Below the pieces are notes generated by a model. That model searched no databases and had not been told where the DNA came from. It saw only the letters and a list, made by a program, of their open reading frames with translations. Below, in pieces: positions 13,711 to 21,893 of a DNA stretch of 64,000 nt. Position 1 is the stretch's first letter. Every line of letters begins with the position of its first letter. The stretch comes from Gammaproteobacteria bacterium (GTDB lineage: Bacteria > Pseudomonadota > Gammaproteobacteria > Pseudomonadales > Azotimanducaceae), in contig JAPOVK010000045.1 of NCBI GenBank assembly GCA_026708185.1, positions 1-64,000 of the forward strand, in the 5' to 3' direction. The position numbers were made by a program, and so were the translations under genes.

Positions 13711-13948
13711 GCGCACGACGATTCGACTGGACGACGCGCTGTTGCGTGATGCGAAGAGCTACGCTGCGGCTGCGGGCATGACCTTGACGGCCTTGATCGA
13801 GGAGTCTTTGCGAGCGCGCATGGCACGGACCGGCAGCGAACCGCGCAAGCGGGTCCGGCTGTTGACATCGGGTGCTGAGGGCATGCACGCCGGCATCGAC
13901 CTTGACAACGCATCCACCCTTGCCGACGCGCGGCAGACGATCCGGTGA
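13709..13948 (+). CDS. Ribbon-helix-helix antitoxin (VapB-like)
   Basis: A 79-residue DNA-binding antitoxin. The N-terminal MRTTIRLDDALLRDAKSYAA is a ribbon-helix-helix beta strand and first helix, followed by GMTLTALIEESLRARMA. The C-terminal tail would bind and block the toxin. It overlaps the following PIN-domain gene by 4 nt (GTGA), the normal antitoxin-toxin coupling. It is likely autoregulated through the inverted repeat across its start. Confidence 0.88.
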   Translation: MRTTIRLDDALLRDAKSYAAAAGMTLTALIEESLRARMARTGSEPRKRVRLLTSGAEGMHAGIDLDNASTLADARQTIR

Positions 13949-14376
13949 TCCTGCCCGATGTCGACATTCTCGTCGCCGCGCACCGCCGCGACATGCCGGA
14001 TCACGAGGCGGTGCGCAATTGGCTCGAGGCCGCCATCAACGCGGACGCCGCATTCGGCCTCAGCGAGCTCGTCGTTGGCCGCTTCCTCATGCTCGTCACG
14101 AACGCCCACGTATTCCGAAGGCCGACGTCGCTCGCGGAAGCGATGGTCTTCGCCAGCCAACTCCGCGACCAGCCCAATCGGGTTGCCGTAGCACCGGGCT
14201 CCCGGCATTGGGAGATTTTCGCGAAGCTCTGCGCATCGACGGGTGCGACGGGCAACGTCGTGCGCGACGCCTACTTCGCCGCCCTCGCCATCGAGCACGG
14301 GTGCGAGTGGATCACCACCGACGCCAACTACAGCCGCTTCGCCGGCCTGGTCTGGCGGCACCCTCTCTCCCGGTGA
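13945..14376 (+). CDS. PIN-domain ribonuclease toxin (VapC-like)
   Basis: A 143-residue PIN-domain toxin, probably a site-specific RNase that acts on tRNA or rRNA. Acidic residues expected for metal binding are visible: LPDVDILVAAHRRD at the N-terminus, LSELVVGRF in the middle, and NVVRDAYFAALAIEHG with WITTDANYSRF at the C-terminus. The GTG start lies inside the antitoxin stop. The substrate is not predictable from the sequence. Confidence 0.9.
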   Translation: MILPDVDILVAAHRRDMPDHEAVRNWLEAAINADAAFGLSELVVGRFLMLVTNAHVFRRPTSLAEAMVFASQLRDQPNRVAVAPGSRHWEIFAKLCASTGATGNVVRDAYFAALAIEHGCEWITTDANYSRFAGLVWRHPLSR

Positions 14377-14401: not shown

Positions 14402-16414
14402 CTAGGTCATCCGGTGCGCGGCTCTCACCGAATGGGGCAGGGCCGCGAGAACTTCCTGGAGATCCTCGACGAGCCACTCAAGGTGTTCGGCGTACGACCG
14501 CCACTTCCCGACGGCGTCGTAGTAGATGGGTTGACGCACCTGTTCCGAACTCGCCGTCCGGACCGCCCGCCGCGTCTCGAAGAAGCGCACGCAGCCCGGC
14601 TCGAATGACAGGCCGCAGTGGTCGAGTATGCGCCGCACCTGGCCTTCGAGGTCGGTGACCGTGTCCTCGTAGTGCACGGTCAGGACGCGGCCCGGGATGA
14701 CGTCGCGCCAGTGGGTCATTATGGCGTCGTAGTGCAGGTAGTAGTGGGCGAGATCCTCGAGGTCGTAGGTGAAGTTCTGACCCTTGGCGAACAACTGCTT
14801 GTAGCAGCCGAGGCAGCTGTCCAAGGGGTGCCGACGCGCATCGATGATCTTGGCGTTGGGCAGAATCAGGTGCAGCAGGCCGAGGAGCGGGAAGTTGTTC
14901 GGCATCTTGTCGGTGAAGAACGCGCGGTCGGTGAACCGATGGCGTGCCGCATCCTCGAGGTAGCGCTGACCGTACGCGTGCCAATCCCGGCCTTCGAGAT
15001 CGAGCACGGATTCCGGGAACTGCACATCGTCGCGCCGGAAGCGGCCGATCGATGTCGCGATCTGGCCGAGGATCGGCAACTCGGCGGTGCCTTCAACCTG
15101 GCTGTGGCTCGCGAGAATCTGTTCGACCAGGGTCGAGCCTGATCGGGGCAGACCCACGATGAGGATCGGGTCGGGCGCGCCGTGGCCCTTGTCGGCGTGT
15201 TGGACGAGGAAGTCGCGGTTGAAGACCTTGCGGATGTCCTCGTGGCGCTTCTCCAACTCCAGCGGATCGTGCTTCACCAACGGCCGCTGCAACCGGTTGC
15301 CGGCATCGTAGTGGGACCATGCGGCGTCGAAATCGCCCTTGTCCTCGTAGCCCTTGCCGAGCGCGAACGAGAAGTGGATGCGTTCGCTGTCGCTGAGGTC
15401 GCCGCGCGCAAGCTGGTCCTGCATAGCGCCGATCTCTTCGTCCTCGAAGCGGAACACCTTCAGGTTGGCCATGCTCCAGTACACCTCGCCGAAACGGGGC
15501 CGCTCGGCGATGGCGGCGCGATAGGCGGCGAGAGCGGCATCGTGGTCGCCGATGGTCTTCAGGGCATGGCCGTGGCTCATGTGCACGCCGGCGAGCCGGG
15601 GATTCAACTCCAGGGACTTGGCGTAAGCGGAAACGCTTGCTTCCTGCTGGCCGGCCTGAGCGTAGGCGTTGCCGGCGCCCGCCCAGGCCGCGGCGTTGTC
15701 CGGAGCGAGGGCGACGGCGTGCCGATACGCTTCGATGGCATCGTTGGGCTTGTTGTGGTCGAGCAGTACTAGGCCAAGGCTCAGCCAGGCCGCCGTGAAG
15801 TCCGGCGCTGTCGACGTCGCCCGGCGCAGCCAGGCCTCCGCGTCCCCCGGCTTCTTCTTCTCGCGCCAATACGCGATCGCGAGATGGCGCATGGCATCGA
15901 CGTTGTCGGGGTGGTCACGCAGGACACCGCGCAACACCTGTATGGCCTCGTCTGCGCGACCGGCGCGGAGATGGTCGGCACCCTCGGCAACGCGGCCCGC
16001 CGCCGGATCCCGATCGAAATAGGACTCGAAATGCCGATCCGCCTCGTCCCCCCGACCGGCGGCGGCAAGCGCTTGGCCGAGCTTTCGATGCGCGGACGGC
16101 ACGCGCGGATCGAGACGAATCGCCTTCTGGAACGCCGCGATCGCGTCCTCGTATCGGCCCTGCTGCGCGCGGACCTGGCCGAGGTCCTCGTAGAGCAGGG
16201 GAACGTCCGGCGCCAACGCGATCGCCTGATCGACTTGGGCGGCGGCCTCGTCGAGCCGGCCTTGCTTCGCCAAGGCCCGCCCGAGCAGGGACAGGTGCTG
16301 CACGCTGCCGGGATTCATCAGCAGGTAGTCGCGGCAGATCTCCTCGGTGCGCAAGGGGCGGTTCGCCTTCATGGCCGCGATCGCGTGCTGGATGCTGTCC
16401 GCGTGCGGCGCCAT
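14402..16414 (-). CDS. TPR-repeat sulfotransferase
   Basis: A 670-residue two-part protein. Residues about 1-370 are tandem TPR repeats, for example GRYEDAIAAFQKAIRLDPR and KPNDAIEAYRHAVALAPDN. Residues about 414-660 are a PAPS-dependent sulfotransferase domain. Its 5'-phosphosulfate loop GLPRSGSTLVEQIL is at 421-434, and a 3'-phosphate-site region is seen in RRHPLDSCLGCYKQLF. There is no signal peptide, so it is probably cytosolic. The TPR part suggests a protein or peptide acceptor, but this is inference. Its ATG overlaps the stop of the hydroxylase-like gene (TGATG), so the two are translationally coupled. Confidence 0.9.
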   Translation of the reverse strand: MAPHADSIQHAIAAMKANRPLRTEEICRDYLLMNPGSVQHLSLLGRALAKQGRLDEAAAQVDQAIALAPDVPLLYEDLGQVRAQQGRYEDAIAAFQKAIRLDPRVPSAHRKLGQALAAAGRGDEADRHFESYFDRDPAAGRVAEGADHLRAGRADEAIQVLRGVLRDHPDNVDAMRHLAIAYWREKKKPGDAEAWLRRATSTAPDFTAAWLSLGLVLLDHNKPNDAIEAYRHAVALAPDNAAAWAGAGNAYAQAGQQEASVSAYAKSLELNPRLAGVHMSHGHALKTIGDHDAALAAYRAAIAERPRFGEVYWSMANLKVFRFEDEEIGAMQDQLARGDLSDSERIHFSFALGKGYEDKGDFDAAWSHYDAGNRLQRPLVKHDPLELEKRHEDIRKVFNRDFLVQHADKGHGAPDPILIVGLPRSGSTLVEQILASHSQVEGTAELPILGQIATSIGRFRRDDVQFPESVLDLEGRDWHAYGQRYLEDAARHRFTDRAFFTDKMPNNFPLLGLLHLILPNAKIIDARRHPLDSCLGCYKQLFAKGQNFTYDLEDLAHYYLHYDAIMTHWRDVIPGRVLTVHYEDTVTDLEGQVRRILDHCGLSFEPGCVRFFETRRAVRTASSEQVRQPIYYDAVGKWRSYAEHLEWLVEDLQEVLAALPHSVRAAHRMT

Positions 16415-17082
16415 CAGCGGTCGGCGGCGGGTCGTGCCGCCAGTTGCGCGGGCGGCAGGTAGTCGAAGATGAAGTGCACGCGGCTGGTCTTGCCGTCGTT
16501 CATGACCGAGTGGGAGAGCTGGTTGTTGACTTCGAACGCGCGACCGGGCTCGAAGCGGTGGGGAACGCCGTCGATGAAGAACCTGACGCGAGGGTTGGTG
16601 ATCAACGGCACGTGAATGCGGTGACTGATCTTGAGCGACTCGTGCTCGTCGACGTGAGGCGAGATCCGGGCACCGGGGCGCAATCGTACCGCCATGGCGC
16701 GGATCACCGAACCACCTGGTTCGTAGTGACGTCCGATGATCTCGTCCATCACTGGTTCGGCGGTGTCGCCAAGCCGGTCCCAGCCGACGTCACGGGCGAT
16801 GACGAGATCTGGCCATCGGTCGAGGTCCACAAAGCACAGCACAATGGACTCGGTGCTTCGGTGGACGTTGAACGACTCCTGGCGGTACGTCTTCTCCGTC
16901 CATGCGGTCTCGTCGAGCTGCTGCACGGCATCGATCAGCTCGCGGCAAGCGAGCGATCCCAGGTCCCGTGTCCGGCTACCCGGGGTCGTTCGATGGCTTC
17001 CTTCGTCTCCGGTCATGGCATCGCCCCGCTGCGCGACAACCCCGGCGTCGTGGCATTGGTCGGCATTGTACGCGGTTGACAT
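16414..17082 (-). CDS. Aspartyl/asparaginyl beta-hydroxylase-like oxygenase
   Basis: A 2-oxoglutarate/Fe(II) oxygenase-like protein of about 222 residues from the start MSTAYNAD at 17082; MTGDEGSH at 17016 is an alternative. The double-stranded beta-helix is visible in VIRAMAVRLRPGARISPHVDEHESLK, with the iron-binding histidine and acidic residue in HVDEH. HRFEPGRAFEVNNQLSHSVMNDG supplies the distal histidine, and SRVHFIFDY closes the domain. The family hydroxylates Asp, Asn or His side chains. It is translated with the TPR-sulfotransferase and divergent from a TonB-dependent receptor. Confidence 0.85.
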   Translation of the reverse strand: MSTAYNADQCHDAGVVAQRGDAMTGDEGSHRTTPGSRTRDLGSLACRELIDAVQQLDETAWTEKTYRQESFNVHRSTESIVLCFVDLDRWPDLVIARDVGWDRLGDTAEPVMDEIIGRHYEPGGSVIRAMAVRLRPGARISPHVDEHESLKISHRIHVPLITNPRVRFFIDGVPHRFEPGRAFEVNNQLSHSVMNDGKTSRVHFIFDYLPPAQLAARPAADR

Positions 17083-17142
17083 CCCGGGGCCTTCGCCGCC
17101 TAATGGGACAGGCGACCAGTCTCGGGGAGGGAGGGGAGTCCG

Positions 17143-19557
17143 GTGGCGAGCAACCGGGTACGCACAAACCGTCCGAACGCGCCTTCGGGGCAGGCGTTTC
17201 AGATGAAGCCGTTGGCCGTCGCCATCATGGTGGCGCACACGCCAGTCGTCCTCGCGCAGGAACCAACGCAGGAAGTCGACGCCCAGGGGCGCGCGATCGA
17301 GGAGGTCATCGTCACCGCCACGAAGCGCGAGGCCAACATGCAGGACCTCGCGCAGAGCATCACGGCGTTCACCACCGACGACCTCGAACGCCTGCGGGCC
17401 CGCGACATGAAGGAGTACATAGACGCGTTACCGAGCATCGCGCTGGTCAACAGCGTGCCCGGTCGCAACTCCGTGGTGTTCCGGGGCGTGTCGACGGGCT
17501 CGTCGGAGTACCGCACCGACAGCATGACAGCGGTGTATCTCGACGAGCAGCCCCTGACCACCAACTCGCAACAGGTCGATCCCTGGCTGGTGGACATCGA
17601 GCGCGTGGAAGCATTGCCTGGACCGCAGGGCACGTTGTTCGGCTCGAGTTCCCAGTCCGGCACGTTGCGCGTCATCACCAACAAGCCGGATCCGAGCGGC
17701 TTCAGCGCACAGATCGACGCGAGCGCCTATGCGACGAGCGACGGCGAACCCAGCCACGACCTGAGCGGCCACATCAACGTCCCCTTAGGCAATCGCCTCG
17801 CCGTGCGCGTCGCCGCCTTCGCGTCCCACGAGGGCGGCTACGTCGACAACGTCCTCGGCCGCGATCTGGCGGATACGCAGGACAACTCCCGCGTGGTCGA
17901 AGAGGACTTCAACGAGTACGACATCTCCGGCGGACGCGTGGCTGCGACCTGGGACGTGAGCGACCGCTGGACCGCCATCGCCGGACTCATCACCCAGAAC
18001 AGCTCGGCAACCGGTGCCTGGGAATCCGACCCGGCGCTCGGCGACTTCAAGATCGTCAAGTTCTTCGACGAGTACCGGGACGACGACTGGCAGCAGACCT
18101 CGCTCACCTTCAAGGGCGACCTCGGTGCTGCGGAGTTCTCCGCGACCAGCGCCTGGTTCGACCGGGACATCGCCTACGAGTGGGATAACCACGTCTACGA
18201 GCAGTACAAGGACGCCTACTGGGGCGTGTACAACGGCTACGGGCTCTACAACTCGGAGTACACCTTCGGCACCACCTTCAATGAGCAAACCCAGGAACGC
18301 TTCTCGCAAGAGGTGCGGCTGACGTCGTTGGGGGCGAGCCGGTTCCAGTGGATGGTCGGCGCGTTCTACGAGGACGTGGACGACGAGTGGTTCTACGGCG
18401 CCCAGAACCCGTCGCTCATGAACACCGTGGCCTGGGAGACCGCCAACTACTACGCCTACACCTACTACGCCGCCTACGATCACATCCAATATCCGCTCGC
18501 GCCGAGCAACGTGGGCTACTTCAACCACTTCGTGCGCGCGGTGGAGCAGACGGCCGCATTCGGCGAGATGTCCTTCGACATGAGCGAGCGCCTGACCACG
18601 ACCCTGGGGCTGCGCTGGTTCGAGTACGACCGCAACGAGTTCGATCAGTTCCAGTTCCCGCAGGGGCTGCCGCCGCTATCGGGCCTCGACTCGGACGGCG
18701 CCTACCGGGCCGAGGGCGTCGAGCAGGACACGGCGCTCAAGCTCTCCGCGCAGTACACCATCGACAACGACCGCATGCTCTATGCCCTCTTCAGCCAGGG
18801 CTTCCGGCTCGGGGGCTCCAACAGTCAGCGTGCCGCGGCGACGGGGCTCGTGCCGCTGAACTATGGCGCCGACAAGCTCAACAACTACGAAGGGGGCCTC
18901 AAGAGCGAGTGGTTCGACAACCGCCTGCAATTGAACGTCTCGGCGTTCTACATGATCTGGAACGATATCCAGATCGACAACGCCGGCGGCGTGGAGGATA
19001 AGTGGTGGTTGCGCGGCATGATCAACGGCGACACGGCGCGCACCATGGGGGTGGAGGTCAGTTGGGACGCCAGTCTCTCGGACAGCCTGCGCTTCGAAGG
19101 CGGGATCTTCCTCGCCGACCCCGAGTTCAATTCCGAGTTCACGCTTTTGAGCGGCGAAGTGGTCACCGACGGCACCACGATGCCCATTTCGCCGGAGTTC
19201 AAGTACTACTTCGCGCTCGAGTACACGGTGTGGGACTGGCGCGGTATCGGCGACCTCTGGGCGCGGTACGACACGAGCTACCAGTCGGCCGTCTACAACG
19301 GCTTGAGCAGCGCGATCGCCAACGATCCCGACGGCAAGCAGCCGGCGTGGACGCAGAGCAACTTCCAGCTCGGCATCGAGACGCGCCGGGGGCCGGAGCT
19401 CGTCTTCGAGGTCAACAACGTCTGGGACGAACGCACGATCAGTTGGCTGGACAGCGACAGCGACCAGGCCGCGCAATTCGGCGACCCCCGGTTCCGCAAA
19501 CTCCGGTCCTACGCCCCGCCCCGCAGCATCGGCCTGAGCGCTACGTTCCGGTTCTGA
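17143..19557 (+). CDS. TonB-dependent outer-membrane receptor
   Basis: An 804-residue outer-membrane receptor that imports a large or scarce substrate using TonB energy. A short leader ends near VVLAQEP, followed by the TonB-box-like segment EEVIVTATKREANMQDLAQSI. The plug domain includes VVFRGVSTGS and the PGPQGTLFGSSSQSGTLRVIT segment, and a beta-barrel ends in the terminal aromatic signature SIGLSATFRF. The GTG start at 17143 is accepted because the N-terminus leads into the leader; a start at the internal MKPLAVAIM is also possible. The substrate is unknown. Confidence 0.93.
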   Translation: MASNRVRTNRPNAPSGQAFQMKPLAVAIMVAHTPVVLAQEPTQEVDAQGRAIEEVIVTATKREANMQDLAQSITAFTTDDLERLRARDMKEYIDALPSIALVNSVPGRNSVVFRGVSTGSSEYRTDSMTAVYLDEQPLTTNSQQVDPWLVDIERVEALPGPQGTLFGSSSQSGTLRVITNKPDPSGFSAQIDASAYATSDGEPSHDLSGHINVPLGNRLAVRVAAFASHEGGYVDNVLGRDLADTQDNSRVVEEDFNEYDISGGRVAATWDVSDRWTAIAGLITQNSSATGAWESDPALGDFKIVKFFDEYRDDDWQQTSLTFKGDLGAAEFSATSAWFDRDIAYEWDNHVYEQYKDAYWGVYNGYGLYNSEYTFGTTFNEQTQERFSQEVRLTSLGASRFQWMVGAFYEDVDDEWFYGAQNPSLMNTVAWETANYYAYTYYAAYDHIQYPLAPSNVGYFNHFVRAVEQTAAFGEMSFDMSERLTTTLGLRWFEYDRNEFDQFQFPQGLPPLSGLDSDGAYRAEGVEQDTALKLSAQYTIDNDRMLYALFSQGFRLGGSNSQRAAATGLVPLNYGADKLNNYEGGLKSEWFDNRLQLNVSAFYMIWNDIQIDNAGGVEDKWWLRGMINGDTARTMGVEVSWDASLSDSLRFEGGIFLADPEFNSEFTLLSGEVVTDGTTMPISPEFKYYFALEYTVWDWRGIGDLWARYDTSYQSAVYNGLSSAIANDPDGKQPAWTQSNFQLGIETRRGPELVFEVNNVWDERTISWLDSDSDQAAQFGDPRFRKLRSYAPPRSIGLSATFRF

Positions 19558-19585
19558 CCAAGCGGACCCGCCGGGTCGCGTCCGC

Positions 19586-20509
19586 GTGAAACTGCTCGCC
19601 ACGTCGGTGGTGCGCGGCAGCCAGCAGGGGGAGAGCCACGGCGGCATCTACCTGTTGGACCTCGAACGCGAGCGGGCCGACCTCAAACTCGACTGGGACG
19701 CCGCCGGCATCGACTGGGCCGGCCGCGGCGGCGACCGCGGACTGCGCGGCATCGCCTTCGACGCTGAGACCGTCTACATCACCGCGAGCGACGAACTCTA
19801 CGCCTTCGCCCCGGACTTCTCGCCGATCGGCTCGTGGCGCAACCCCTACCTGAAGCACGGCCACGAAACGAGCATCCGCGAGCGAACGCTCTACATCGCC
19901 TCCACCGGATTCGACTCGATCCTCGGCTTCGACCTCGACGAGAAGACCTTCACCTGGGCCATGCACGTCGACCTGCAACGTTTCCGGTTCGTCGCCCGGG
20001 CGTACGACCCGAACGCCGACAACGGCCCGTTGCAACTCAACAGGCTGCACATCAACAACGTCCACTGCGACGACAACGGCATGTACTTGAGCGGCTTGCG
20101 CACCGGCGGCATGGCCCACTTCAACGGCACGACGTTGTCGATGAGCGCGGAACTCCCCGCCGGTACGCACAACGCCCGGCCTTTCCGCAACGGCGTCCTG
20201 TTCAACGACAGCGAAGCCGACCGGTTGCGCTACGTCGGTCGCGGGGACGGTAGCGAGGACCGGGCCATGGCCGTGCCCAGGTACTCACCGCGGGAGCTTC
20301 AGAACGCGGAGTTCGACGACGGCCACGTCGCGCGGCAAGGCTTCGCCCGCGGGCTCGCCGTGCTCTCGGAGACGGTCGTGGCGGGCGGCTCCTCGCCCTC
20401 GACGGTGGTTGTCTACGACCTTGCGGGCAACCAGCGACTGATGTCCGTGAACCTGTCGATGGATGTGCGTAACGCGATCCACGGGTTGGAAGTGTGGCCT
20501 TTCTCTTAG
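19586..20509 (+). CDS. Beta-propeller protein of unknown function
   Basis: A 307-residue protein with no clear signal peptide and repeated strand motifs such as LRGIAFDAETVYITASDELYAF, RTLYIASTGFDSILGFDLDE and THNARPFRNGVLFNDSEADRLRYVG. These indicate a roughly six-bladed propeller. It resembles the DUF4915/TIGR03032 kind of propeller as I remember it, but this is not secure. Catalysis is not evident; a binding role is possible. It begins with GTG 28 nt after the TonB receptor stop, so co-expression is likely. Confidence 0.7.
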   Translation: MKLLATSVVRGSQQGESHGGIYLLDLERERADLKLDWDAAGIDWAGRGGDRGLRGIAFDAETVYITASDELYAFAPDFSPIGSWRNPYLKHGHETSIRERTLYIASTGFDSILGFDLDEKTFTWAMHVDLQRFRFVARAYDPNADNGPLQLNRLHINNVHCDDNGMYLSGLRTGGMAHFNGTTLSMSAELPAGTHNARPFRNGVLFNDSEADRLRYVGRGDGSEDRAMAVPRYSPRELQNAEFDDGHVARQGFARGLAVLSETVVAGGSSPSTVVVYDLAGNQRLMSVNLSMDVRNAIHGLEVWPFS

Positions 20510-20571: not shown

Positions 20572-21066
20572 CTACTCCAGTCGACGAGCAACCGCCTCGA
20601 CCGTTCGAATCATTGCGTCAATGAACCCGGCATCCACCTCGAGCCTGCCTTCGTACTCCGCGAGGTTGCGCTTTCGATGAGCCTGGTCGAGTACTCGCCA
20701 CTGATGGTTCTCGAGCCCGACGGTATGCGGCAGGCACTGGAATACGAGATACCGATTGTCCGACCGATACCCGGCTCGGCGAAGAGCGCCTAGATGCCTT
20801 GAGAGCGCGGACCGTTGAGGCGTGAATCAAGCTCTGCGACACCGGTGGGAGAACGCGCAGCGTTCTCGATCGCGTCGCTCCAGCGACGCGCCGTGGGCTG
20901 CGTTGTAGGCGAGATCGAACCGAGACTCCATGCTAAGTCCCGTGTTTCGCGCGTCACGGAGTCTAGCGAGCCCCGAACTGATCAGTCCCGCCACTTCCGC
21001 TTCAGAAGGCGGCTCAGTCTTCAGGCGCCCGACCTTGACGAGATTATCCAGAGAGTCAATTGACAT
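20572..21066 (-). pseudogene. HEPN-domain toxin gene interrupted by a repeat
   Basis: The N-terminal part starts at MSIDSLDNLVKVGRLKTEP (21066) and reads to SRFDLAYNAAH (to 20893). The C-terminal part resumes in another frame at LGALRRAGYRSDNRY and continues through LVFQCLPHTVGLENHQW, QAHRKRNLAEYEG and ends at RRLE with TAG at 20572-20574. The family is the HEPN class found after wHTH-nucleotidyltransferase genes. The RKRNLAEYEG segment is probably its RNase-like motif region. Between the halves lies a 94-nt structured repeat (20799-20892). The interrupted frame instead ends at a stop near 20827, so any product lacks the C-terminal half. The ATG overlaps the nucleotidyltransferase stop by 11 nt. 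Confidence 0.85.
20799..20892 (+). repeat. Structured repeat, family 1, copy B (in HEPN gene)
   Basis: A 94-nt relative of the element at 10797-10892. It begins TTGAGAGCGC and contains a weak TTGA/TCAA pair, then GAGAACGC/GCGTTCTC (20850-20868) and CGCGTCGCT/AGCGACGCG (20871-20890), joined by CTCGATCGCG. Stem differences from copy A are compensated on both arms, so the structures have been maintained. It sits inside the coding sequence of a HEPN gene, which gives the strongest evidence that the family is mobile. A 3-nt GCC flanks both ends, but this is too short to claim as a target duplication. Confidence 0.8.
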
Positions 21067-21673
21067 CGGATGATCCCACCAGCACTTCCGTTGGTCCGGT
21101 GAGGACACGTCGTAGAAACTCGTTTCCGCGTTGACGACGCTTATCGAACTCATCGCGCGTGTACAGAGCGGGGTCGATCGACCGCCCCAGTTCTCGCTCG
21201 GCGCTGGCAAGGTGGGAGAAGACCTCTTCAAGAATGAGGTCTTCCGACACTATGAGCAGGTCGATGTCACTCGCGGCCGTATCTGTCTGCTTCGCAACGG
21301 AACCGTAGATCAGGGCCAACGTGATGCGCGATTCGATCGGTCCAAGTGCTGCTCGGATCTGCTCCGCCACGCCGACTGTCTTGCTGATAATCGAGCACAG
21401 TTCCTGGTAGATCGGCGCTTGGGCATTGGCCCGAAAGTGCTTACGGTTCCCTTGCCATTCCGGGACAATGAGTCGCCCGCGCTCTAGTCGCGACAGTTCA
21501 CGCTGGACACCACCGCGTCCCGCGCGCGCGAGCTTGATCAACTCAGTGACATAGAAGGAGCGACCGGGCTGGCCGAAGAGCAACCGGAGCACGCGCTTTT
21601 GCGTCCCCGTGAACAGCGCGTCTGCCAGCGATGCCGTTGAGCCAGGTGGTGTCGCGAAGGAGTCTATACCCAT
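21056..21673 (-). CDS. wHTH-nucleotidyltransferase (MNT-type antitoxin)
   Basis: Start at 21673 (MGIDSFATPPGSTASLADAL), about 205 residues. Residues about 15-100 form a winged helix-turn-helix: QKRVLRLLFGQPGRSFYVTELIKLARAGRGGVQRELSRLE, in pieces. A minimal nucleotidyltransferase domain follows with LIYGSVAKQTDTAASDIDLLIV, the GS...D.D catalytic pattern. In HEPN/MNT pairs this partner neutralises the HEPN RNase, in some systems by adding nucleotides to it. The cognate HEPN gene directly downstream is broken here, so this may be an orphan antitoxin. A nested palindrome covers its start codon. Confidence 0.87.
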   Translation of the reverse strand: MGIDSFATPPGSTASLADALFTGTQKRVLRLLFGQPGRSFYVTELIKLARAGRGGVQRELSRLERGRLIVPEWQGNRKHFRANAQAPIYQELCSIISKTVGVAEQIRAALGPIESRITLALIYGSVAKQTDTAASDIDLLIVSEDLILEEVFSHLASAERELGRSIDPALYTRDEFDKRRQRGNEFLRRVLTGPTEVLVGSSDVN

Positions 21674-21703
21674 AACGAGTATCTTAATACTCGCTTTGGG
21701 TAT
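21666..21703 (+). promoter_or_regulatory. Nested palindromic operator at the MNT start
   Basis: The inner perfect inverted repeat is CGAGTAT (21676-21682) and ATACTCG (21687-21693) around CTTA. The outer pair is ATACCCA (21666-21672) and TGGGTAT (21697-21703). All arms are centred on the same point near 21684.5. The structure covers the start codon of the wHTH-nucleotidyltransferase (21671-21673) and is AT-rich against a GC-rich background. The most likely role is autorepression by the encoded winged helix. Binding is inferred. Confidence 0.65.
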
Positions 21704-21752
21704 GTTCAAATTGCACGCCGGGGCGGGAGATGTCGGTCGCGGCGGCGCCGCG

Positions 21753-21893
21753 CGTGCGAGCTTGAACAATTCAGTGAGATAGAAAGTGCAACCGGGCTGG
21801 CCGAAGAGCAACCGGAGCACGCGCTCTTGCGTCCCTGTAAACAGCGTGCCCGCCAGCGATGCCGTTGAGGCGGGTGGTGAAGGAGTCTGTGTA
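21753..21893 (-). pseudogene. Partial duplicate of the wHTH-nucleotidyltransferase gene
   Basis: About 140 bp upstream of the intact gene repeat its 5' coding region (21523-21665) at high identity. The minus-strand translation reads STASLAGTLFTG, then TQERVLRLLFGQPGCTFYL and TELFKLARA, against STASLADALFTG, TQKRVLRLLFGQPGRSFYV and TELIKLARA in the functional copy. It has no start codon or nucleotidyltransferase domain. It and flanking sequence fill 21704-21951; nothing else is evident there. It could arise from tandem duplication or from insertion of a related module followed by deletion. Confidence 0.82.

Follow-up and report, generated by a model that had tools for sequence, protein, structure and literature searches.

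We know of no established ligands for most TonB-dependent receptors (TBDRs). Some surface proteins have a modifying enzyme encoded beside them that acts in the cytoplasm, as is the case with HMW1C and TibC. Methanobactin operons (MbnS, MbnT) encode a TonB transporter, and two of them a sulfotransferase as well, according to the relevant part of PMC3621798. RaxX of Xanthomonas becomes a sulfated tyrosine peptide, as outlined in PMC6637879, and one table for Pontixanthobacter gives neighbouring cluster numbers to a lasso-peptide B2 protein, to sulfotransferases and to an aspartyl beta-hydroxylase (PMC10040529). These portions of the literature suggest that sulfotransferases, perhaps together with an AspH-type enzyme, can serve polypeptide tailoring (PMC3621798, PMC10040529, PMC6637879). 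Here we describe a cassette of four genes in a gammaproteobacterium of the Azotimanducaceae, located in positions 1 to 64,000 of contig JAPOVK010000045.1 (assembly GCA_026708185.1; this whole stretch of 64,000 nucleotides is referred to as the window). It encodes a TBDR, a sulfotransferase (ST) with tetratricopeptide repeats (TPRs), an AspH-like 2-oxoglutarate oxygenase and a six-bladed beta-propeller. The recurrence of this gene set in other genomes suggests a dedicated chemical decoration of the receptor or of its ligand.

The cassette would share with HMW1C and TibC the logic of a dedicated cytoplasmic enzyme for an exported surface protein; those are, however, glycosyltransferases that act on adhesins, whereas a sulfotransferase, an oxygenase and a TonB receptor, as putative substrate, are found here. 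With TPR-sulfotransferases and tyrosylprotein sulfotransferases including RaxST, the ST of the window has in common the domain that uses 3′-phosphoadenosine 5′-phosphosulfate (PAPS) and a conserved phosphosulfate-binding region; it differs from the tyrosylprotein sulfotransferases in its long TPR region and in adjoining a receptor, and no precursor peptide was found near it. The combination of a TonB transporter with a sulfotransferase is shared with the methanobactin operons, in the cited part of whose description neither AspH nor a propeller is named (PMC3621798), and from which the cassette also differs in that no precursor peptide was found there. The initial annotation of this DNA had known of no characterised system with these four genes. 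Consistent with that, no description of a receptor/hydroxylase/sulfotransferase/propeller set was found in the open-access literature, subscription papers and preprints lying outside the scope. The cassette as a set appears to be undescribed, and so does the propeller family, while the remaining parts are known families.

Organization of the cassette

Two gene pairs diverge at about 17.1 kb of the window, with AspH and ST on the minus strand and the TBDR and the propeller on the plus strand; both the positions and this divergent arrangement had been given in the initial annotation and are confirmed by the open reading frames (ORFs) and the family assignments. The ST gene (14402..16414, minus) encodes 670 residues, with a Sulfotransfer_3 domain (PF13469; approximately 14597-15169, minus) that scores 163 bits against a cut-off of 27, and a TPR region upstream of it within the gene. 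The AspH-like oxygenase (16414..17016, minus) matches PF05118, the aspartyl/asparaginyl beta-hydroxylase family, with 47-48 bits (48.3) against a cut-off of 22.6. Its ORF extends to a GTG at 17238, but the start is likely the ATG at 17016, giving 200 residues, because it is at about residue 4-26 of this shorter form that the alignments with close homologues begin. The stop codon of AspH and the ATG of ST share one base, 16414, and translational coupling of the two genes is therefore plausible.

An intergenic region (17017..17202) separates the divergent pairs. The TBDR gene (17203..19557, plus) encodes 784 residues from the ATG at 17203, with a GTG at 17143 as the other possible start, and its product, a plug and a 22-stranded barrel, is matched by PF07715 and PF00593. 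Only 28 bases separate its stop codon from the GTG at 19586 of the propeller gene (19586..20509, plus; 307 residues). In NCBIfam, AspH and the propeller were unmatched, and the matches shown for ST and the TBDR fall below the curated cut-offs (best for ST, 25 versus 28).

Conservation and co-occurrence of the four genes

The propeller was searched for in one genome per GTDB species, which yielded 109 pattern stretches, 90 of them confirmed and the best 80 kept. Gene families in these 80 loci, which include near-identical relatives (not dereplicated) and many of which are clipped by contig ends, were assigned by phmmer (E 1e-5), with every ORF of 80 residues or more included. All four families are present in 40 of the 80 loci; of the others, 16 lack AspH only, 4 lack the TBDR only, 10 have the propeller alone and 10 have other subsets. 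Where the propeller is preceded by 6 kb or more and followed by 4 kb or more (51 loci), 32 are complete, and with 9 kb on both sides (37 loci) there are 23 complete sets and 3 solitary propellers. Read by eye, at least eight gene arrangements occur, and in many loci the genes lie between a few bases and some hundreds of bases apart. The loci span gamma- and alphaproteobacteria and come from Woeseiaceae, SAR92/Porticoccaceae, Halieaceae, Lysobacterales, Peristeroidobacter, Hyphomonas, Erythrobacter, Kordiimonadaceae and others. One locus (L104) carries a Klebsiella pneumoniae label that looks wrong, since the propeller and its neighbours in this metagenome-assembled genome (MAG) match those of a gammaproteobacterial MAG (L102).

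Conservation of the set across genomes, the check that the initial annotation had named beforehand, also holds at the level of whole genomes. Within the window's order (194 genomes), AspH (E ≤ 1e-50) and the propeller (E ≤ 1e-90), with thresholds placed at the gap in the match lists, each occur in 14 genomes, 13 of which have both (Fisher 3e-18, a test that ignores relatedness). Across the class, both occur in the same 3 of 369 genomes, the window's own included. This 5.13 Mb genome contains 2 matches to PF05118, 9 to Sulfotransfer_3 and 52 to the TBDR barrel, and 15 relatives that were counted have 14 to 60 TonB receptor matches each. Set against the match numbers of the own genome, the presence of all four genes together in 40 of 80 homologous loci is more than chance.

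Tyrosine-rich loops of the receptor

The model of the TBDR has a predicted local distance difference test (pLDDT) score of 88.2 and, by our own count from the strand list, 22 barrel strands. Its nearest solved folds among the 50 listed are siderophore and other TonB receptors, e.g. 4epa, Fiu and FhuA, at 12-17% identity. Residues 329-356 (loop L4; 18187..18270, plus) and 402-436 (loop L5; 18406..18510, plus) are predicted to be extracellular from the model strands, because long loops alternate with short turns in the usual topology. These two loops are rich in tyrosine, with 7 in 28 residues of L4 and 7 in 35 residues of L5. The same is true for the 58 cassette receptors, where tyrosine accounts for 22.4% of the residues in L4 and for 15.0% in L5, against 0-5.7% in the remaining loops and 6.4% in the strands, and at least 8 tyrosines occur in 55 of the 58. 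Placed in a tree together with 37 others, the 58 cassette receptors cluster as a single group. A larger tree places L345, L346, L361, the L356 pair and L362, all without the full set, among the 13 cassette representatives.

Pairing of sulfotransferase and receptor outside the cassette

The ST domain (E ≤ 1e-15) is more widespread than the cassette and occurs in 66 of the 194 genomes of the order. Forty ST regions outside cassettes were hand-picked from the ST match list, the TBDR neighbours of some being visible beforehand, and 28 of them have a TBDR beside the ST. By profile search, AspH is present in 2 of these 40 regions (L277 and L284) and the propeller in none, so that the receptor is the commonest partner of the ST. 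From the receptor side, at least 34 of 63 receptor matches (to E about 1e-50) have an ST match within 5 kb. The window's own genome has a second ST-TBDR pair (L220). Direct TBDR/TPR-ST pairs of one clade and without propeller are seen in L220, L259-L264, L266-L277, L297 and L298, with AspH in L277 alone, where a TBDR, an ST and a 320-residue PF05118 protein lie together (L277:945-6944). Some genomes have several TBDR-ST pairs.

Receptors paired with this close type of ST, most of them without AspH and propeller, have a tyrosine-rich loop in common. A stretch of some 40 residues with 7 or more tyrosines occurs in 24 of the 26 TBDRs that lie no more than 600 bp from a close-type ST, compared with 4 of 75 unpaired TBDRs; the 26 include the second, convergent receptor of L279, which is unlikely to be a true partner, and that of L275 (6 tyrosines). 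A loop motif of the form DYxxY..Y..Y, which differs from the cassette form of the loop and was defined after the sequences had been read, is present in 23 of the 26 and in 0 of the 75. Six regions (L220, L223-L226 and L228) entered this comparison because their TBDR-ST pair was already known. As unpaired controls we used receptors of the own genome, PF00593 matches with high scores (40 regions with about 2 kb flanks) and further receptors of the ST regions; this choice is biased against the cassette clade, and the Fisher and rank tests ignore relatedness. Except for the second receptor of L279, the close-type receptors form one clade, which consists of the cassette group and an ST-only group; receptors outside it with no ST in view have 4-7 tyrosines in the same tree comparison.

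Catalytic motifs of the oxygenase and the sulfotransferase

An HxD...H motif with an arginine is the pattern of a working 2-oxoglutarate oxygenase. In 48 AspH sequences including that of the window, His121, Asp123 and Arg179 are invariant and His169 is 98% conserved, so that the catalytic motif appears intact. The window protein shares with PF05118 both this pattern and a score above the cut-off, whereas the closest solved sequence, the L-proline cis-4-hydroxylase 4p7w, is matched only weakly (E 0.07). In 58 aligned ST sequences, window included, the GLPRSGSTL region (a PAPS-type motif) and the RRHPLDSCLGCYKQLF region are largely conserved, and an adenosine 5′-phosphosulfate (APS) kinase for PAPS supply is encoded in the own genome.

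The propeller family

A structure model built from 41 aligned members shows six four-stranded blades (pLDDT 90.6; predicted template modelling score 0.90), with less confidence (pLDDT 59-64) in two conserved loops, near residues 11-20 and 41-50. Nine residues are invariant in the 41 members (Arg54, His93, Glu94, His155, Asn157, His195, Asn196, Arg255 and His299), and in the model each blade has them at its inner strand or immediately ahead of it. Judged from the strand order, four histidines and two arginines probably form a ring at one mouth of the channel. No signal peptide was recognised in the propeller by eye, no predictor having been run.

The window propeller has no Pfam or NCBIfam match at E 0.001, and naming the family by sequence failed, as the matches over the 41 members are weak and scattered: WDR36-type in 7 (best 7e-4), DUF4915 in 7 (best 0.024) and PQQ_2 in 3 (best 5e-4). 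A profile search of the PDB returned mainly repeat-type propellers, and a fold search returned generic propellers only, with query-normalised template modelling scores up to 0.60 among the 50 matches listed. Aligned profile to profile with DUF4915 (PF16261), the family gives an E value of 8e-5 but a probability of 61%, for which reason we regard DUF4915 as a possible distant relative and not as the same family. The two resemble each other in motifs of the H-x-N and GF-x-RG type; they differ in that the window protein lacks a Pfam match, and the genomes with DUF4915 (15 of 194) and those with a strong propeller match (14 of 194) do not overlap. Two distant relatives of the propeller, L135:9992-10960 and L136:9971-10912, lie inside loci that look polysaccharide-like by eye, the latter with other sulfotransferase-like genes.

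Proposed role of the cassette

A clade of receptors that is mostly tied to an ST, one branch of which also has an oxygenase and an undescribed propeller, raises a testable question: is it the receptor or its ligand that is modified? The conserved gene set, the intact catalytic motifs, the frequent ST-TBDR pairing and the tyrosine-rich loops are the observations on which an answer has to rest. A role in servicing the receptor is favoured because the receptor, with or without AspH and propeller, is the commonest partner of the ST, no biosynthetic cluster was recognised in six ST-TBDR regions inspected by eye and the nutrient-type neighbours vary; receptor modification is for this reason ranked first and ligand tailoring second. 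We thus propose, with a probability of roughly 40%, a receptor-plus-tailoring cassette, in which the enzymes would modify the adjacent receptor before its export, with the ST sulfating tyrosines.

The receptor would import a nutrient that differs from locus to locus. ST, the AspH-like oxygenase and the propeller would all be cytoplasmic and would act on the newly made receptor ahead of export. The TPRs would serve to recruit the ST, which would add O-sulfate to the tyrosines of L4 and L5. An aliphatic side chain would be the target of the oxygenase, and the propeller, working with its conserved His/Arg set, might be either the third enzyme or a factor that binds the client. The outcome would be a receptor mouth with altered charge. 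In that case membrane transporters would join a secreted peptide as targets of bacterial tyrosine sulfation. Somewhat more tentatively, a lineage of TonB receptors may carry its own cytoplasmic modifiers, with the tyrosines of two extracellular loops sulfated by the TPR-ST and with one branch also hydroxylated and processed by the propeller as a new enzyme with a His/Arg ring; if true, dedicated sulfation and hydroxylation would for the first time be seen to tune outer-membrane receptors.

Several observations weigh against modification of the receptor. Tyrosylprotein sulfotransferases follow a rule by which an acidic residue precedes the target tyrosine. This acidic-context criterion failed in the cassette receptors, since Asp or Glu precedes 47 of the 556 tyrosines of the richest window (8.5%), below the 13% for other residues; in the ST-only receptors it precedes 55 of 211 (26%; background 12%), which for that group speaks in favour of tyrosine sulfation. 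Five loci (L127, L133 and L138-L140) have no receptor of the cassette clade but retain two or three enzyme genes, namely AspH and propeller in L127 and L133, propeller and ST in L138, and all three in L139 and L140; the TBDRs of another type in L138, L139 and L127 are only moderately rich in tyrosine (at most 6, 7 and 5). The 3 solitary propellers among the 37 loci with long flanks, and the 12 of 40 sampled ST regions without a TBDR beside the ST, point the same way. Near the shorter type of ST, 1 of 8 receptors is tyrosine-rich and none of the 8 has the DYxxY..Y..Y motif, itself a post hoc definition. Since the close-type receptors form one clade, the counts of tyrosine loops with ST are not independent, and their correlation may reflect a single evolutionary event. 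Four clade members (L345-L348) keep 7-8 tyrosines without an ST in the fetched DNA, two of them (L345 and L346, inside the cassette group) also without the other core genes, although the genomes of all four hold other ST genes. Tyrosine-rich loops could, moreover, simply bind an aromatic or hydrophobic ligand.

That the ligand and not the receptor is tailored is the strongest competing explanation, though a less probable one in our view. The product or target of the enzymes would be a small molecule or a short peptide, such as one like a metallophore, which is exported and taken up again by the receptor, and the cassette would then mark a new family of uptake ligands. Among the 50 solved structures listed as closest to the receptor model, the majority are siderophore receptors, a metallophore-like ligand could be bound by the tyrosine-rich loops, and the methanobactin operons offer a precedent; the numbering in the Pontixanthobacter table hints at adjacency without showing it (PMC10040529). 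Against this, a comparison of 2414 ORFs of 20-90 residues, taken from the window and the 80 loci no farther than 3 kb from a core gene, revealed no conserved precursor, ORFs overlapping the core or other conserved genes being excluded. The largest shared family of small ORFs is confined to 5 related SAR92/Porticoccaceae loci, and a conserved ribosomal precursor peptide was rejected on these grounds. The initial annotation had suggested that hydroxylation and sulfation act on a polypeptide; the receptor as the putative polypeptide fits the ST-TBDR pairing and the tyrosine-rich loops, whereas a secreted peptide, another of its candidates, lacks support as a ribosomal product, no conserved short ORF having been found outside the core genes. 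Nor was an exporter or a lasso-type partner (B1/B2/C) recognised among the neighbours present in at least 5 loci, of which only some were named by profile, and by eye no biosynthetic cluster was recognised in six ST-TBDR regions (L220, L223-L226 and L228). Several genomes, furthermore, are rich in ST (12 in G099 and 10 in G127), some of it in separate TBDR pairs, which also speaks against ligand tailoring.

Processing of an imported nutrient is a still less probable explanation. A peptide or N-methylated amine would be acted on inside the cell by the oxygenase, the ST and the propeller, perhaps through hydroxylation, sulfation of the new hydroxyl group and elimination by the propeller as a lyase, to give a desaturated or cleaved product. 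The invariant His and Arg at the starts of the inner propeller strands are as expected of an active site, and S9 peptidase, amidohydrolase, Rieske, MTHFR-like and DAO-type genes are among the neighbours in relatives. These neighbours are inconstant, however, none being present in more than 16 of the 80 loci under stricter clustering; the expenditure of PAPS in catabolism would be odd, and ST-TBDR pairs occur without oxygenase and propeller.

Marginally more doubtful again is that the enzymes modify another surface partner, i.e. a lipid, a polysaccharide or a second outer-membrane protein working with the receptor. PF05118 includes lipid hydroxylases such as LpxO, and the distant propeller relatives in L135 and L136 would suit a polysaccharide, but no lipid or polysaccharide family was recognised among the neighbours in at least 5 loci, most of which were judged by eye. 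Chance or shared-expression neighbours without joint function, to which the 10 solitary propellers among the 80 loci (some short or clipped, 3 with 9 kb on both sides) would lend support, carry almost no probability, and this reading was rejected on the co-occurrence evidence, as linkage is kept despite reshuffled gene orders and co-occurrence is near-perfect.

Neighbouring genes

Accessory neighbours change between loci while the core set persists. Sixteen of the 80 loci have a gene for an amine oxidoreductase dependent on flavin adenine dinucleotide; genes of the S9 peptidase, amidohydrolase, MTHFR-like, Rieske, DAO, DUF6445 and class III aminotransferase families are each found in 8-14. These families were named by profile search of representative members, and some of the genes stand several kilobases off the core. 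DUF6445 (10/80) and MTHFR-like genes (12/80) lie close to the core, e.g. in L111, L112, L116, L117 and L128, and Rieske and DAO genes are found in others, which suggests a connection with N-methyl or one-carbon metabolism. In L138-L140, the propeller and ST, with AspH too in the two Peristeroidobacter loci, are found amid peptidase- and hydrolase-like genes; the TBDRs of L138 and L139 have an STN domain, and in L139 FecR- and sigma-like ORFs, as seen by eye, intervene.

In the window itself, a PIN-domain gene (13945-14376) ends right beside the ST gene and may be a toxin-antitoxin remnant. Beyond the propeller, a nucleotidyltransferase ORF lies at 21056-21820 on the minus strand, and a direct repeat of 132 bases with 89% identity (21520-21651 and 21748-21879) looks as if the N-terminal part of the nucleotidyltransferase had been duplicated.

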